Source: Parvularcula marina
GTDB taxonomy: Bacteria > Pseudomonadota > Alphaproteobacteria > Caulobacterales > Parvularculaceae
Direction of reading: 5' to 3'
Assembly: GCF_003399445.1 (NCBI RefSeq)
Contig: NZ_QUQO01000001.1
Location: 2,353,001-2,417,000 of the forward strand
DNA length: 64,000 nt
Position 1 is the first letter of the stretch. Each line of letters begins with the position of its first letter. The translations under genes were made by a program, and so were the position numbers. The notes below the pieces were generated by a model, which saw nothing but the letters and a program-made list of their open reading frames with translations, made no database searches and had not been told where the DNA came from. Positions 40,674 to 45,692 of this stretch are shown here, piece after piece.

Positions 40674-40790
40674 CCCGAAAAGCGCGACGTGGTTACTCCT
40701 GTGTAAAACCATATCTTGACCGTGAAGCGTTATGCACCTCTAGATGTGGTGCCCAGCAAGGACGGTTTGGGGAACAAGAGAGGAACAAAA

Positions 40791-42689
40791 ATGCGCGACC
40801 TTTCCATGACCGAAACGGCCCGGAAAACAGTTGAGGAAACGGTGACGGCACCGGCCCAGCCCGCCGCCGAACCCAAATCCGACGCTCGTCCGGTCCTCAA
40901 AGTCGTCCGCGAGGTTCAGGTCGACCGGTCGCGCGATGCCCTGCTGACGGATTTCGGCAAAAAGACCATGGATGACCGCTATCTGCTCGAGGGCGAAAGC
41001 TATCAGGACATGTTTGCCCGGGTCGCGACCGCCTATGGCGATGACGCTGACCACGCCCAGCGCATCTATGACTATATCTCGAAGCTCTGGTTCATGCCGG
41101 CGACCCCCGTCCTCTCGAATGGCGGCGCGAAACGCGGCCTGCCGATCTCCTGCTTCCTCAATGCGGTGGGTGATTCGCTCGACGGCATTGTCGGGACATG
41201 GAACGAGAATGTGTGGCTTGCGTCCAATGGCGGCGGCATCGGCACCTATTGGGGCCAGGTCCGCTCGATCGGCGAGACGGTGAAGGGCCAGGGCAAAACG
41301 TCTGGCATCATTCCTTTCATCCGCGTGATGGATTCGCTGACCCTTGCGATCAGCCAGGGCTCGCTGCGCCGCGGCTCGGCCGCCTGCTATCTCGACATCC
41401 ACCACCCGGAAATCGAGGAGTTCCTCGAAATCCGCAAACCCTCCGGCGACTTCAACCGTAAATCGCTGAACCTGCATCACGGCCTCAACATCACCGATGA
41501 GTTCATGGAAGCGGTCGCGGCGGATGAGGAATTCGGCCTGCGCTCGCCCAAGACCAATGAGGTCATCCGTACCGTGAGCGCCCGCAAGCTGTGGCAGAAG
41601 ATCCTTGAGATCCGCCTGCAGACGGGTGAGCCCTATCTCATCTTCTCGGACACGGTGAACCGCGCCATGGCCAAGCACCAGCGCGATCTGGGGCTGAAGG
41701 TCTCGACCTCGAACCTCTGTGCCGAGATCATGCTGCACACCGGCAAGGACCATCTAGGCAATGAGCGGACGGCCGTTTGCTGCCTCTCCTCGATCAATGC
41801 CGAGAAATATTTCGAGTGGAAGGACGAGCCGCGCTTCGTCGAAGACGTCATGCGCTTCCTCGACAACGTGCTTGAAAGCTTCATCCAGGAAGCGCCGACG
41901 GAAATGGCGAAGGCCGTTTACTCAGCACAGCGCGAGCGCTCGGTCGGTCTCGGCCTCATGGGCTTCCACTCCTTCCTGCAGGAAATGGGCGTGCCGTTCG
42001 AAAGCGCGATGGCCAAATCGTGGAACATCCGTCTCTTCAAACATATCCGGATGGGCGCGGACGCCGCATCGGTGAAACTCGCCGAGGAACGTGGGCCATG
42101 TCTGGATGCGGAAGAACGCGGCATCAAACAGCGCTTCAGCCACAAAATGGCGATTGCGCCGACGGCGTCGATCTCGATCATCTGCGGCGGCGCGTCCCCT
42201 TGCATCGAGCCGATCCCGGCCAATGTCTATACGCACAAGACCCTGTCGGGCTCCTTCACGGTCAAGAACCGCGCGCTTGAGCAGCTCCTTGAAGACAAGG
42301 GCCTGAACGATGATGACACCTGGGCCTCGATCCTCGAGCATGAAGGCTCGGTCCAGCATCTTGATTGTCTGTCTCAGGACGAAAAGGACACGTTCAAGAC
42401 GGCGTTCGAAATCGACCAGCGTTGGGTCATCGACCTTGCCGCCGACCGCGCACCCTTCATCTGCCAGTCCCAGTCGATCAATGTCTTCATCCCCGGTGAT
42501 GTCGACAAATGGGATCTGCACATGCTGCACTGGACCGCGTGGGAGAAGGGCGTGAAGTCGCTCTACTACTGCCGCTCCAAATCCGTTCAGCGTACGGCCT
42601 TTGCCGGCGGCAAGGGACGCGAGGAAAATGTCTCCCCGATGCTCCTGCCGGAGAAGACGGATTATGACGAGTGTCTGGCGTGTCAGTGA
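40791..42689 (+). CDS. nrdA: Ribonucleoside-diphosphate reductase large subunit
   Basis: 632 residues from ATG 40791 with AGAGAGGA upstream; the frame is open to 40716. Reduces ribonucleotides to deoxyribonucleotides. Motifs: LWFMPATPVLSNGG (~92-105), LPISCFLNAVGDSLDGI (active-site Cys), NGGGIGTYWGQVRSIGE, SNLCAEIMLHTG (thiyl Cys), ASISIICGGASPCIEPI, the radical-path Tyr pair SLYYCRSKSV and C-terminal ECLACQ redox pair. No N-terminal ATP-cone is evident, so dATP inhibition may be absent. nrdB is not adjacent in this window. Confidence 0.94.
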   Translation: MRDLSMTETARKTVEETVTAPAQPAAEPKSDARPVLKVVREVQVDRSRDALLTDFGKKTMDDRYLLEGESYQDMFARVATAYGDDADHAQRIYDYISKLWFMPATPVLSNGGAKRGLPISCFLNAVGDSLDGIVGTWNENVWLASNGGGIGTYWGQVRSIGETVKGQGKTSGIIPFIRVMDSLTLAISQGSLRRGSAACYLDIHHPEIEEFLEIRKPSGDFNRKSLNLHHGLNITDEFMEAVAADEEFGLRSPKTNEVIRTVSARKLWQKILEIRLQTGEPYLIFSDTVNRAMAKHQRDLGLKVSTSNLCAEIMLHTGKDHLGNERTAVCCLSSINAEKYFEWKDEPRFVEDVMRFLDNVLESFIQEAPTEMAKAVYSAQRERSVGLGLMGFHSFLQEMGVPFESAMAKSWNIRLFKHIRMGADAASVKLAEERGPCLDAEERGIKQRFSHKMAIAPTASISIICGGASPCIEPIPANVYTHKTLSGSFTVKNRALEQLLEDKGLNDDDTWASILEHEGSVQHLDCLSQDEKDTFKTAFEIDQRWVIDLAADRAPFICQSQSINVFIPGDVDKWDLHMLHWTAWEKGVKSLYYCRSKSVQRTAFAGGKGREENVSPMLLPEKTDYDECLACQ

Positions 42690-43286: not shown

Positions 43287-43369
43287 CAGGCAATTAGATT
43301 GCATAACCATCCGCATGCGATGTTTCGTCCAAGTGCGGACCTCGGCATTCCCAGAACCCACCCAACCAT

Positions 43370-43495
43370 CCGCTCATCCCCGCGCAGGCGGGGATCCGCC
43401 TCTGATGCGCTGATCTCTCATTTTTGGAGAGTGGAAAGACAGGTCCCAACCCTCATCCCTTAAGACCAGATGCCCGCCTGCGCGGGCATGAGCGG
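43370..43495. repeat. Terminal-inverted-repeat element, copy 1 (126 bp)
   Basis: Starts CCGCTCAT and ends ATGAGCGG; the 26-bp ends are inverted copies with two mismatches. Each end holds its own palindrome: ATCCCCGC-GCAG-GCGGGGAT on the left, ATGCCCGC-CTGC-GCGGGCAT on the right. No coding capacity. Confidence 0.85.
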
Positions 43496-43587
43496 GGTGA
43501 GAGAGCTAGCAGGACGGATTACGTAGCCATCCGCCTGCGGTGTTTCGTCTAGGTGAACCCCGGCATTTTCAGAACCTACCCCACCAT

Positions 43588-43713
43588 CCGCTCATCCCCG
43601 CGCAGGCGGGGATCCGCCTCTGCGGCGCCGGTCTCTCGTTCTCGATGAGTGGGAAGACAGAGCCCAACCCGCATCACACAAGACCAGATGCCCGCCTGCG
43701 CGGGCATGAGCGG
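43588..43713. repeat. Terminal-inverted-repeat element, copy 2 (126 bp)
   Basis: Same length and ends as copy 1, with loops GCAG (left) and CTGC (right). The interior differs from copy 1 at many positions, so the copies are not recent duplicates. Confidence 0.85.
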
Positions 43714-43807
43714 GGTGAGAGAGCTAGCAGGACGGATTACGTAGCCATCCGCCTACGGTGTTTCGGCCAAGAGCGAACCCCAGCATTCCCAGAACTCACC
43801 CCACCAT

Positions 43808-43933
43808 CCGCTCATCCCCGCGAAGGCGGGGATCTGCCTCTGAGGCACCGATCTCTCATTCTCGGTGAGTGGGAAGACAGAGCCCAACCCTCATCCCTCA
43901 AGATCAGATGCCCGCCTTCGCGGGCATGAGCGG
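43808..43933. repeat. Terminal-inverted-repeat element, copy 3 (126 bp)
   Basis: Same length and ends, but loops are GAAG (left) and CTTC (right): both ends changed together so the two stay complementary. It ends 36 nt before the GIY-YIG start codon. Confidence 0.85.
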
Positions 43934-43969
43934 GGTGAGAGGGAAAGAGAAATATGCTAACCCCACGCC

Positions 43970-44257
43970 ATGGCGTTCTATGTCTACATGGTGACCAATC
44001 GGCCCGGCGGGGTGATTTATACAGGGCATACGGAAGATATCGAGAACCGGACATGGGAGCACCGCGAACAAATCCGCAAAGGCTTCGCGTCGAAATATAA
44101 TTGCTCTCGTCTCGTCTGGTATGAAATCCACGAGGCACGCGAAGATGCCTTCACTCGTGAGCGACAGATCAAAAAATGGAACCGGGCGTGGAAAATGCGC
44201 CTGATTGAAGAGACAAATCCCGACTGGGTTGATCTGTTCAACAGCCTCTTTGGCTGA
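43970..44257 (+). CDS. GIY-YIG nuclease-domain protein
   Basis: 95 residues, a single-domain GIY-YIG protein of the YhbQ/UvrC-like size class. Motifs: FYVYMVTNRPGGVIYTGHTED (GIY as VYM, YIG as IYTG), NRTWEHREQIRKGFASKY (catalytic Arg/His region), LVWYE, and RERQIKKWNRAWKMRLIEE (Glu, Lys). These nick or cut DNA; many copies occur as cargo-like genes in alphaproteobacteria. It sits between a triple array of inverted-repeat elements and a fourth partial element, a context pointing to a role in, or dependence on, those repeats. Confidence 0.9.
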   Translation: MAFYVYMVTNRPGGVIYTGHTEDIENRTWEHREQIRKGFASKYNCSRLVWYEIHEAREDAFTRERQIKKWNRAWKMRLIEETNPDWVDLFNSLFG

Positions 44258-44270
44258 GCTTCATTTTCCT

Positions 44271-44320
44271 CCGCTCATCCCCGCACCGGCGGGGATCCGC
44301 CTCTGAGGCGCCGGCTCTCC
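44271..44320. repeat. Partial fourth copy of the inverted-repeat element
   Basis: The left end recurs exactly (CCGCTCAT, palindrome ATCCCCGC-ACCG-GCGGGGAT, then CCGCCTCTGAGGCGCCGG) 14 nt after the GIY-YIG stop, but the sequence diverges after about 50 bp and the right end is missing. Confidence 0.8.
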
Positions 44321-44417: not shown

Positions 44418-45692
44418 ATGACCTCACCTTCTCATGAAATTGCACGCGCCGTGATCATCGGGGCCGGTCCCGCTGGCCTGATGGCCGCGGAGATGCTCAC
44501 CGATCACGGCATCGCCGTCGATATTTATGACGCCATGCCGTCGCCTGCGCGCAAATTCCTGATGGCGGGCAAGTCGGGGCTGAACATCACGCATACGGAG
44601 GGGCTTGAGATGTTCCTTGCCCGGTATAGCGAGGATGAGGGCCGCTTGGCGGAGATCGTAGCTGATTTCACTCCGCATATGATCATCCGCTGGATGGAAG
44701 AGTTAGGGATTGAAGCCCAAACCGGGCCGACCGGCCGGGTCTTCCCCAGCATGATGAAGGCCTCACCGCTTTTGCGCGCCTGGTTGCGGCGCTTGGAAGA
44801 CGGCGGCGCGACACTTCATACTAGGCATCGCTGGACCGGCTGGGACGAAGACGGCGCGCTTTTGTTCGAGACGCCGGACGGGCCAAAAGCCGTGACGGCG
44901 GAGGTGGTCATCTTCGCGCTGGGGGGCGCAAGCTGGTCTCGGCTCGGCTCAGATGGGGCGTGGGCAGAGCATTTTGCGAAAGAAGATATCCCCGTCACCC
45001 CCTTCATGCCGTCCAATAGCGGCTTTCTCGTTGACTGGTCGGCGCATATGAATGAGACCTATGCCGGCGCGCCGGTCAAGAATATCCGCTTGACCGCGGG
45101 GGATGTCTCAACGCGGGCGGAATTCGTGATCACCGAACGCGGGGTCGAAAGCGGCGGTATTTACATGGTCTCCGCCCCGCTTCGAGAGGCGCTTGCGGCA
45201 GGTGAGGCTCTCCTCAATATTGATCTGTTGCCGGATGTTTCAGAAGAGGCGCTGACCGAAAGGCTGTCCCGACCGCGCGGTCGCCAGTCGATGAGCAATC
45301 ACTTGCGAAAGGCGGCGCGCCTGACCGGCGTGAAAAAGGCGCTGCTCTATGAATTCACTCCTAAAGAGGTGCTGGAAGATGCGGCCGCTCTAGCGAAGGC
45401 AATCAAATCGCTCCCTTTACGGATCACTGGAATGGTGCCGCTTGACGAGGCCATCTCGACGACGGGCGGGGTGCCTTTCGCGGCGTTGACAGAAGAATTG
45501 ATGCTGGAAGATCGGCCCGGCACATTCTGCGCAGGCGAAATGCTTGGTTGGGATGCGCCGACGGGCGGTTATCTGCTGACGGCGTGCTTCGCGACGGGCC
45601 GCCGGGCAGGTCAGGGTGCCTGCAGCTGGCTGCTCGACAGCGCTGCGCCGAACGGGCAAAACGGTGTCACAGATAAAGGGGACGCCGCATGA
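44418..45692 (+). CDS. FAD-dependent flavoprotein, HI0933/TIGR03862 type
   Basis: 424 residues. Dinucleotide-binding motif VIIGAGPAGLMAAEML (~12-27), PARKFLMAGKSGLNITHTEG (~43-62; family signature), GRVFPSMMKASPLLRAWL, LGGASWSRLGSDGAW and C-terminal TTGGVPFAAL and CAGEMLGWDAPTGGYLLTAC. This family is related to BaiN oxidoreductases; substrate unknown. Its stop overlaps the next start (ATGA), so the two are coupled. Confidence 0.9.
   Translation: MTSPSHEIARAVIIGAGPAGLMAAEMLTDHGIAVDIYDAMPSPARKFLMAGKSGLNITHTEGLEMFLARYSEDEGRLAEIVADFTPHMIIRWMEELGIEAQTGPTGRVFPSMMKASPLLRAWLRRLEDGGATLHTRHRWTGWDEDGALLFETPDGPKAVTAEVVIFALGGASWSRLGSDGAWAEHFAKEDIPVTPFMPSNSGFLVDWSAHMNETYAGAPVKNIRLTAGDVSTRAEFVITERGVESGGIYMVSAPLREALAAGEALLNIDLLPDVSEEALTERLSRPRGRQSMSNHLRKAARLTGVKKALLYEFTPKEVLEDAAALAKAIKSLPLRITGMVPLDEAISTTGGVPFAALTEELMLEDRPGTFCAGEMLGWDAPTGGYLLTACFATGRRAGQGACSWLLDSAAPNGQNGVTDKGDAA

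Follow-up and report, generated by a model that had tools for sequence, protein, structure and literature searches.

Standalone GIY-YIG nucleases as likely partner enzymes of CGTC-type palindromic repeats

How do CGTC-type repetitive extragenic palindromic (REP) sequences spread? They "apparently lack a dedicated transposase", and the means of their dissemination was left open in the study of Di Nocera, De Gregorio and Rocco (2013, PMC3733652; like all papers cited here, drawn on in selected sections). The question is raised again by a 64,000-nucleotide stretch of the Parvularcula marina genome (contig NZ_QUQO01000001.1, positions 2,353,001 to 2,417,000; hereafter the window), in which a gene for a small standalone GIY-YIG nuclease sits among palindromes of this general type. 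An earlier note on this DNA had suggested a GIY-YIG protein as the partner of these repeats, in parallel with the REP-associated tyrosine transposases (RAYTs). This suggestion gains support from the matching of nuclease clades to palindromes, from co-occurrence across genomes, and from recurrence in many phyla. We find that the link between nuclease and repeat is real and general, that different nuclease clades carry different palindromes, and that gene and palindromes are found together at differing sites in related species. In our judgment, CGTC REPs and related palindromes are likely to have standalone GIY-YIG nucleases as their partner enzymes, just as GTAG REPs have RAYTs. Our confidence in the full mechanism set out below, and in the broader reading given with it, is slightly reduced because host phylogeny is uncorrected and because the palindrome classes were defined after the data.

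Hairpins around standalone GIY-YIG genes

Two sets of loci form the basis of the comparison. The family set derives from 62 genomes of the family to which P. marina belongs and comprises 93, later 112, standalone GIY-YIG genes (the better-scoring among the PF01541 matches listed), with 20 uvrC genes as controls. One further tandem copy in genome G010 and one gene with an internal stop (L252) are excluded from the counts; another gene with an internal stop (L123) is included in the 112 of the intergenic control and absent from the clustering, the similarity test, and the tree. The wide set holds the best 80 of 567 loci and leans toward the clade of the window gene. It spans 11 groups in all (60 Pseudomonadota, 5 Nitrospirota, 2 Myxococcota, and others, with 5 loci carrying no group), and at least six of its loci are also family loci (L160, L166, L167, L170, L191, and L196). 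Hairpins were defined as perfect stems (at least 8 bp in density counts) with loops of 3-6 nt, a definition that misses the repeats of nuclease clusters 9 and 10, which were seen by eye.

Hairpins are concentrated at these genes in both sets. Around the 93 family genes, their density is 2.69/kb within 200 nt of the matched domain, 0.86/kb at 200-400 nt, and 0.14-0.25/kb beyond, with all distances taken from the domain and a standard domain length assumed for L051-L079. The density within 200 nt of the 20 uvrC genes is 0.125/kb. The wide set yields 3.82/kb within 200 nt versus 0.27-0.48/kb beyond 400 nt. The excess is also present when only intergenic DNA, as delimited by a crude caller of open reading frames (ORFs), is considered: 3.02/kb within 400 nt versus 0.85/kb beyond 600 nt in the family set, and 4.19 versus 0.95 hairpins/kb in the wide set. 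Furthermore, a hairpin lies within 200 nt of 63 of the 112 standalone family genes versus 26 of 103 other ORFs (at least 100 aa) at the same loci, and the corresponding wide-set values are 59 of 80 and 43 of 187.

In the wide set, the gene is frequently preceded by GTCATTCCCGCGAAAGCGGGAATCCA and followed by the reverse complement of that sequence; among oriented-pattern matches, the median gaps are ~14 and ~11 nt. By a strict oriented pattern, the palindromes on the two sides have opposite orientations at 32 of the 80 loci (26 inward, 6 outward) and the same orientation at 5; one or both sides have no pattern match at the other 43. The palindromes flanking the window gene are inverted and point outward.

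Most of the nuclease genes examined have an open frame, and active-site residues are conserved in the main clades. The catalytic residues of GIY-YIG enzymes are two tyrosines, an arginine, a glutamate, and an asparagine, and the window protein, which we take to be a member of COG2827, has all of them (Tyr6, Tyr17, Arg27, Glu64, and Asn83). Tyr6, Tyr17, Glu64, and Asn83 are present in all 80 wide-set relatives, and Arg27 is present in 79. An AlphaFold2 model of the window protein has a mean predicted local distance difference test (pLDDT) score of 93.4. Its nearest solved folds are the UPF0213 proteins 1zg2 (E 2.8e-4) and 1ywl (E 0.03), followed by structures of Slx1 (6seh, 4xlg, and 7cq3) with weak E-values of at least 0.08. 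The window protein thus shares its single-domain fold and its active-site residues with known standalone proteins of the COG2827/UPF0213 type such as 1zg2 and 1ywl; the link to palindromic repeats is a feature seen here that no paper listed in our literature search reports for them.

Nuclease clades, palindrome classes, and repeat abundance

Protein identity tracks palindrome similarity among the 90 genes with a hairpin (Mantel r 0.565), a value reached by none of 1000 permutations, the best of which gave 0.19. When pairs with no detected homologous outer flanks are considered, palindromes are alike (score of at least 12) in 0.1% of pairs below 30% protein identity, 7.8% at 40-50%, 67% at 60-70%, and 76% above 70%. 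Comparisons within genomes carrying several such genes (135, from 66 genes) show the same trend: in 97, palindrome resemblance is greater for the closer protein in another genome, and 9 are ties. The protein tree shows the same pattern: 59 of its 111 genes are labelled with one of five palindrome classes, and these labels change 11 times versus 34.2 times when shuffled, with none of 300 shuffles as low. A separate tree of 80 short proteins was too poorly resolved to tell whether genes have been transferred between phyla.

Repeat abundance across genomes follows this pairing. Among 62 genomes treated as independent, the class A count (from a pattern allowing two mismatches that also catches the CCGGC sub-class) is associated with the presence of nuclease cluster 2, the clade of the window gene (p 6e-8), with a median of 27 in the 23 genomes that have the cluster and 1 in the 39 that do not. 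The class B count is likewise associated with cluster 5 (p 1.6e-7) and the class C count with cluster 7 (p 1.6e-4). After removal of gene-adjacent palindromes, the respective values are 3e-7, 1e-4, and 3e-4. Within the genus of P. marina, the clade is found in 2 of 10 genomes among the matches listed, and these have 41 and 29 hits; the other eight have 0-3. Elements scattered independently of GIY-YIG genes, the contrary outcome that the earlier note had considered, are not what we observe. A counterexample is G037, in which 11 class C palindromes occur and the matches listed include no intact cluster 7 gene. When looked up after the test, its gene L252 (2441-2725) was found to have an internal stop, to be up to 73% identical to cluster 7, and to lie ~125 nt from a class C palindrome. 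Perhaps the repeats have outlived their gene in this genome.

Relocation, remnants, and the P. marina repeats

The closest relative of the window gene (L245) encodes a 79% identical protein and lies in a different neighborhood. Its homology to the window covers positions 43905-44296, which is to say a palindrome, the gene, and another palindrome, and the remaining matches are single palindromes. More broadly, 106 gene pairs are >70% identical and reside in different genomes; for 72 of them, a search of 1-2 kb detected no homology between the outer flanks. In Azospirillum lipoferum 4B, the gene and four palindromes (one imperfect) lie in the 617 nt between sufB and sufC. This gap measures 91 nt in A. 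ramasamyi, 87 nt in A. oryzae, 129 nt in strain B510, and 55 nt in A. thermophilum, and is similarly short in A. argentinense; the gene plus palindromes is not at this site in the five relatives inspected. The B510 gap contains an inverted repeat of another sequence. These sites are too diverged for the ends to be placed, and we rejected the case as a clean insertion. A gene of this kind, unannotated and identified by reading the sequence, also lies between sufB and sufC in Shinella PSBB067, where its palindromes are of a different class; two classes at one site may be a coincidence or a preference (L292, 1857-2475, in Azospirillum; L303, ~840-1340, in Shinella).

Some gene-less elements might derive from units that carry the gene. 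In Sinorhizobium meliloti Ak57, a neighboring gene-less element holds the last 27 codons of the gene (93% identical) between the same palindromes, as an internal-deletion derivative would look. A stretch beside a palindrome in S. medicae WSM419 reads by eye as a decayed C-terminus, and short gene remnants occur ~2.8 kb from the gene at locus L217.

In the P. marina genome (3.40 Mb in 35 contigs), hits merged by hand amount to 41 distinct palindromes at 23 loci, and a control pattern has zero matches. Seven of the 41 palindromes lie within 700 nt of the window gene versus 0.02 expected singly, and by loci the count is 1 of 23 versus 0.011 expected. Within the window, the hairpin pattern has 11 matches (both strands counted) versus 0.02 expected in shuffles. 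The palindromes there have stems of ATCCCCGC-NNNN-GCGGGGAT and ATGCCCGC-NNNN-GCGGGCAT and read GCTC-AT(stem)-loop-(stem)AT-CCG or -CTG. The genome has 17 full palindrome pairs, all in inverted orientation. In the 14 elements outside the window, the 12 nt to the left are 71% pyrimidine and the 12 nt to the right are 80% purine, and so the element may extend beyond 126 bp or may prefer pyrimidine/purine flanks. Four PF01541 matches are present in this genome, of which three are standalone genes and one lies in a 646-aa frame that we read as UvrC. The second standalone gene has an inverted GTCATCCCGG...CCGGAATGAC element beside it, and the third has direct repeats of ~130 bp on both sides, the first of which starts at the end of a tRNA gene. 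Both of these repeats belong to other families and have low copy numbers. Rfam searches at gathering scores over seven loci gave tRNA as the sole match.

The window locus itself (Table 1) has three gene-less elements ahead of the GIY-YIG gene, each 126 bp long and inverted at its ends. Their number, length, and placement confirm what the earlier note had described, as does the observation that both ends of every element form a perfect hairpin with an 8-bp stem and a 4-nt loop, with the loop sequences that it gave. The inverted arms are 27 nt and 93% complementary in copies 1 and 2, and are reported as 38 nt and 84% in copy 3. The note also described a partial fourth element after the gene. A palindrome is indeed present there, but we prefer to assign it to the gene unit as its right-hand palindrome because the homology of the sister gene spans 43905-44296. 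An ORF of 163 aa between the array and its upstream neighbor had no match in Pfam or NCBIfam profile searches. We consider it probable that the window contains a REP/nuclease unit, in which a GIY-YIG gene sits among CGTC-type palindromes accompanied by multiplied gene-less palindrome pairs.

Table 1. Features at the GIY-YIG locus of P. marina (window positions)
Feature	Position	Strand	Remarks
nrdJ-like ORF (by reading of translation)	40716-42689	+	Upstream neighbor of the array region, bounding the locus
ORF, 163 aa	42795-43286		Hydrophobic stretches by eye; between nrdJ-like ORF and array
Tandem array	43339-43985	+	Three 209-nt units holding the three elements; unit spacing 218 and 220 nt
Array unit 1	43339-43547
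Array unit 2	43557-43765		89% identical to unit 1
Array unit 3	43777-43985		77% identical to unit 1
Gene-less element, copy 1	43370-43495	+	Inverted palindrome pair, loops GCAG/CTGC
Gene-less element, copy 2	43588-43713	+	Inverted palindrome pair, loops GCAG/CTGC
Gene-less element, copy 3	43808-43933	+	Inverted palindrome pair, loops GAAG/CTTC
Palindrome common to copy 3 (right end) and gene unit (left end)	43907-43933	-	Sister-unit homology starts at 43905
Standalone GIY-YIG nuclease gene, 95 aa	43970-44257	+	PF01541, E 2.5e-16
Right-hand palindrome of gene unit	44271-44297	+	Homology of sister gene unit
Flavoprotein gene	44418-45692	+	Downstream neighbor, bounding the locus

The loops of the three window copies change together, and the earlier note had seen in this a sign that selection or correction keeps the two ends able to pair. 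Across all full elements of the genome, the loops match in 9 of 17 versus 5.0 expected when right-hand loops are dealt out (p 0.0125), and in the other eight they do not. However, the three window copies are not independent because they are parts of one 209-nt tandem repeat, and tandem duplication alone could give their perfect matching. With the array counted once, the tally is 7 of 15 versus 4.1 expected (p 0.05), and outside the window it is 6 of 14 versus 3.5 (p 0.07), slightly above chance. We therefore set loop co-variation aside as evidence of selection, and regard pairing between the ends as an improbable cause of the pattern.

Explanations for the association

How might such an enzyme act on its repeats? 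The nuclease would recognize its cognate palindrome, probably folded into a hairpin or cruciform, a form suggested by the weak structural resemblance to the branched-DNA nuclease Slx1. It would then nick or cut the palindrome, and host replication or repair might place a copy elsewhere, whether of the palindrome alone, of the pair, or of the entire gene unit, by a route akin to that by which RAYT transposases are thought to spread GTAG REPs. We infer the cleavage, the copying route, and the role of the gene as the cause of repeat spread; the association, its specificity, the co-occurrence, and the different sites in related genomes are what we observe. By a small measure, we lean toward the view that GIY-YIG nucleases constitute a second, independent class of REP-mobilizing enzymes. 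By this reading, minimal mobile units of ~400 bp (a ~95-codon gene plus cognate palindromes) would have seeded CGTC REPs, the dRS3 palindromes and their NIME (Neisseria intergenic mosaic element) arrays, and several further families across many bacterial phyla, and every nuclease clade would be dedicated to a single palindrome class.

Several findings weigh against a mobilizing nuclease. No clean insertion was found in the 14 P. marina elements outside the window, in Azospirillum, or in S. medicae. In the last species, the single strain-level difference considered is a 161-bp stretch present in four records and absent from eight (three of the eight aligned). We rejected it as a clean insertion; it resembles a deletion between palindromes in which one of the breakpoints falls in a palindrome loop. 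At the assumed element boundaries, a target-site duplication of even 2 nt is found in none of the 14. The description "MITE-like" (for miniature inverted-repeat transposable elements) in the earlier note fits loosely, in that there are inverted palindromes and a gene remnant inside one element elsewhere, but the duplication expected of a MITE derived from a DDE transposon is absent. No gene remnants were found inside the three elements of the window, and S. meliloti Ak57 offers the only convincing gene-derived gene-less element near a gene; we therefore rejected remnants as a general rule. The statistical evidence has its own blemishes. Hairpins and flanks had already been seen when the class patterns behind the genome counts and the tree were drawn up, and the co-occurrence tests set seven clusters against three such patterns with no correction for host phylogeny. 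Four mismatched combinations of clade and class also reach p <0.05 (0.003-0.035), and 29 of the 135 within-genome comparisons go the wrong way. UvrC is the only PF01541 match in one genome (G024), which has 12 class A hits, and another (G058) has 24 class B palindromes with no cluster 5 gene among those examined. Finally, Asn83 is not aligned in clusters 9 and 10.

The main competing explanation is homing, in which a selfish GIY-YIG gene uses existing CGTC REPs as landing sites and the REPs spread by other means. In its favor, homing is a classic activity of GIY-YIG nucleases (PMC1564403), a filamentous phage is reported to land at dRS3 palindromes (PMC3898611), and the matching of clades to palindromes would follow from target specificity. 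Yet by eye no such palindrome was seen between sufB and sufC of A. ramasamyi or A. oryzae, and gene and palindromes therefore seem to have reached A. lipoferum together. Given that the eight congeners of P. marina that lack the clade carry 0-3 palindromes, a pre-existing population of landing sites is also not seen, and the presence of a gene remnant inside a gene-less element speaks against homing as well. We disfavor homing as unlikely.

It is quite unlikely that the protein is instead a structure-specific nuclease of the host that removes or repairs cruciforms at its repeats, with proximity reflecting co-regulation or co-inheritance. Such a maintenance role leaves unexplained why the gene sits among its palindromes at different sites and why repeat numbers are low in most genomes without the clade, even though it accords with the weak resemblance to Slx1, with the SOS box reported for one Caulobacter COG2827 gene (PMC1839093), and with the deletion breakpoint in a palindrome loop of S. 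medicae. That the GIY-YIG gene is a chance passenger of REPs spread by a RAYT or another transposase is very improbable. RAYTs are proposed to spread GTAG REPs (PMC2817692), but the Y1 transposase domain (PF01797) has no match in the P. marina genome, leading us to reject a RAYT as the mobilizer there, and none in 50 of the 62 family genomes, including the repeat-rich G041 (121 hits), G020 (59), and G043 (54). In the sections of PMC3733652 drawn on here, Di Nocera et al. likewise found no transposase gene associated with CGTC repeats.

The reading of the nuclease as a partner enzyme also bears comparison with known systems. CGTC-1 REPs have an 8-bp stem starting with AT and a 4-nt loop, occur predominantly as inverted dimers, are commonest in alphaproteobacteria, and include the dRS3 repeats of Neisseria (PMC3733652). 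The window palindromes resemble them in stem, loop, high copy number, and mostly inverted pairing. According to the text of that paper, CGTC-1 REPs have an unpaired CGTC tag (TGTC or CCTC in many) on one side and a CCA-like tail on the other; the window palindromes read GCTC, not among the variants named, and CCG or CTG at these places, and GTC/CTC and CCA are frequent among the palindromes of relatives. One difference is that a matched nuclease gene adjoins such palindromes here, whereas those sections report no dedicated enzyme. The study examined transposase genes, and its intragenic analysis excluded hypothetical proteins of <120 aa (PMC3733652); the term GIY-YIG is absent from the paper.

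RAYTs have been tied to REPs by flanking palindromes, co-evolution, and correlated abundance (Nunvar et al. 2010, PMC2817692). The system described here is similar to REP/RAYT systems and to REP doublets forming hairpins (REPINs) in that a gene sits among palindromes, inverted at 32 of the 80 wide-set loci, gene and palindrome co-vary between lineages, and gene presence tracks repeat abundance. It differs in its enzyme, which is a GIY-YIG nuclease rather than a tyrosine transposase of the HUH type. REPs usually exceed 100 copies (PMC2817692), and the 41 palindromes of P. marina fall below this number. In a paper on Moraxella, a RAYT and a GIY-YIG gene appear as two separate entries among the clade-specific genes (PMC9465073).

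The NIME arrays of Neisseria, in which repeats of 50-150 bp lie between dRS3 palindromes of the form ATTCCC(N8)GGGAAT (PMC3898611, PMC9778887), have an architecture similar to that of the window locus. A record of N. gonorrhoeae has a GIY-YIG relative inside an array of dRS3-type palindromes. In the sections of these two papers drawn on here, dRS3 is tied to a phage integrase and not to a nuclease gene, and the term GIY-YIG is absent from the main text of both. Similarly, the string "palindrom" is absent from the survey of the GIY-YIG superfamily by Dunin-Horkawicz et al. (PMC1564403). Among the matches listed in our literature search, which covered neither subscription papers nor preprints and so leaves priority unproven, no paper linked standalone GIY-YIG proteins to palindromic repeats.

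CGTC REPs predominate in alphaproteobacteria, and the dRS3 repeats are implicated in genome rearrangement (PMC3733652, PMC3898611). With a nuclease matched to each palindrome class, the question of how CGTC REPs spread can be tested directly using one small protein and one hairpin oligonucleotide. If true, our proposal would also provide a function for a common protein family whose members often carry UvrC-like annotations (PMC1839093; also two records).

Other standalone GIY-YIG genes are associated with repeats of different kinds. At L011 (1263-1740) and at the cluster 9 loci (L056, L059, L091, L125, L126, L134, and L255), GIY-YIG genes of ~79 aa lie inside repeats that by eye seem to start directly at tRNA gene 3′ ends (CCACCAGCCTTCGCC...), with the tRNA confirmed in L011 only, which suggests that this sub-family may target tRNA ends. 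Genes of cluster 10, of the ADGSYYVGSHRG type, lie by eye between repeats like CCTCATCCTGAGG...CCTCGAAGGATG (L066, L087, L095, L111, L120, and others). In genome G010, L079 and L097 contain tandem GIY-YIG gene copies whose proteins are 99-100% identical. On a plasmid of Planktothrix agardhii (L293), a GIY-YIG gene sits among GTCATTCTGAGTGAAACGAAGAATC repeats, with an mmeI-type gene on one side and drmA of a DISARM region on the other.

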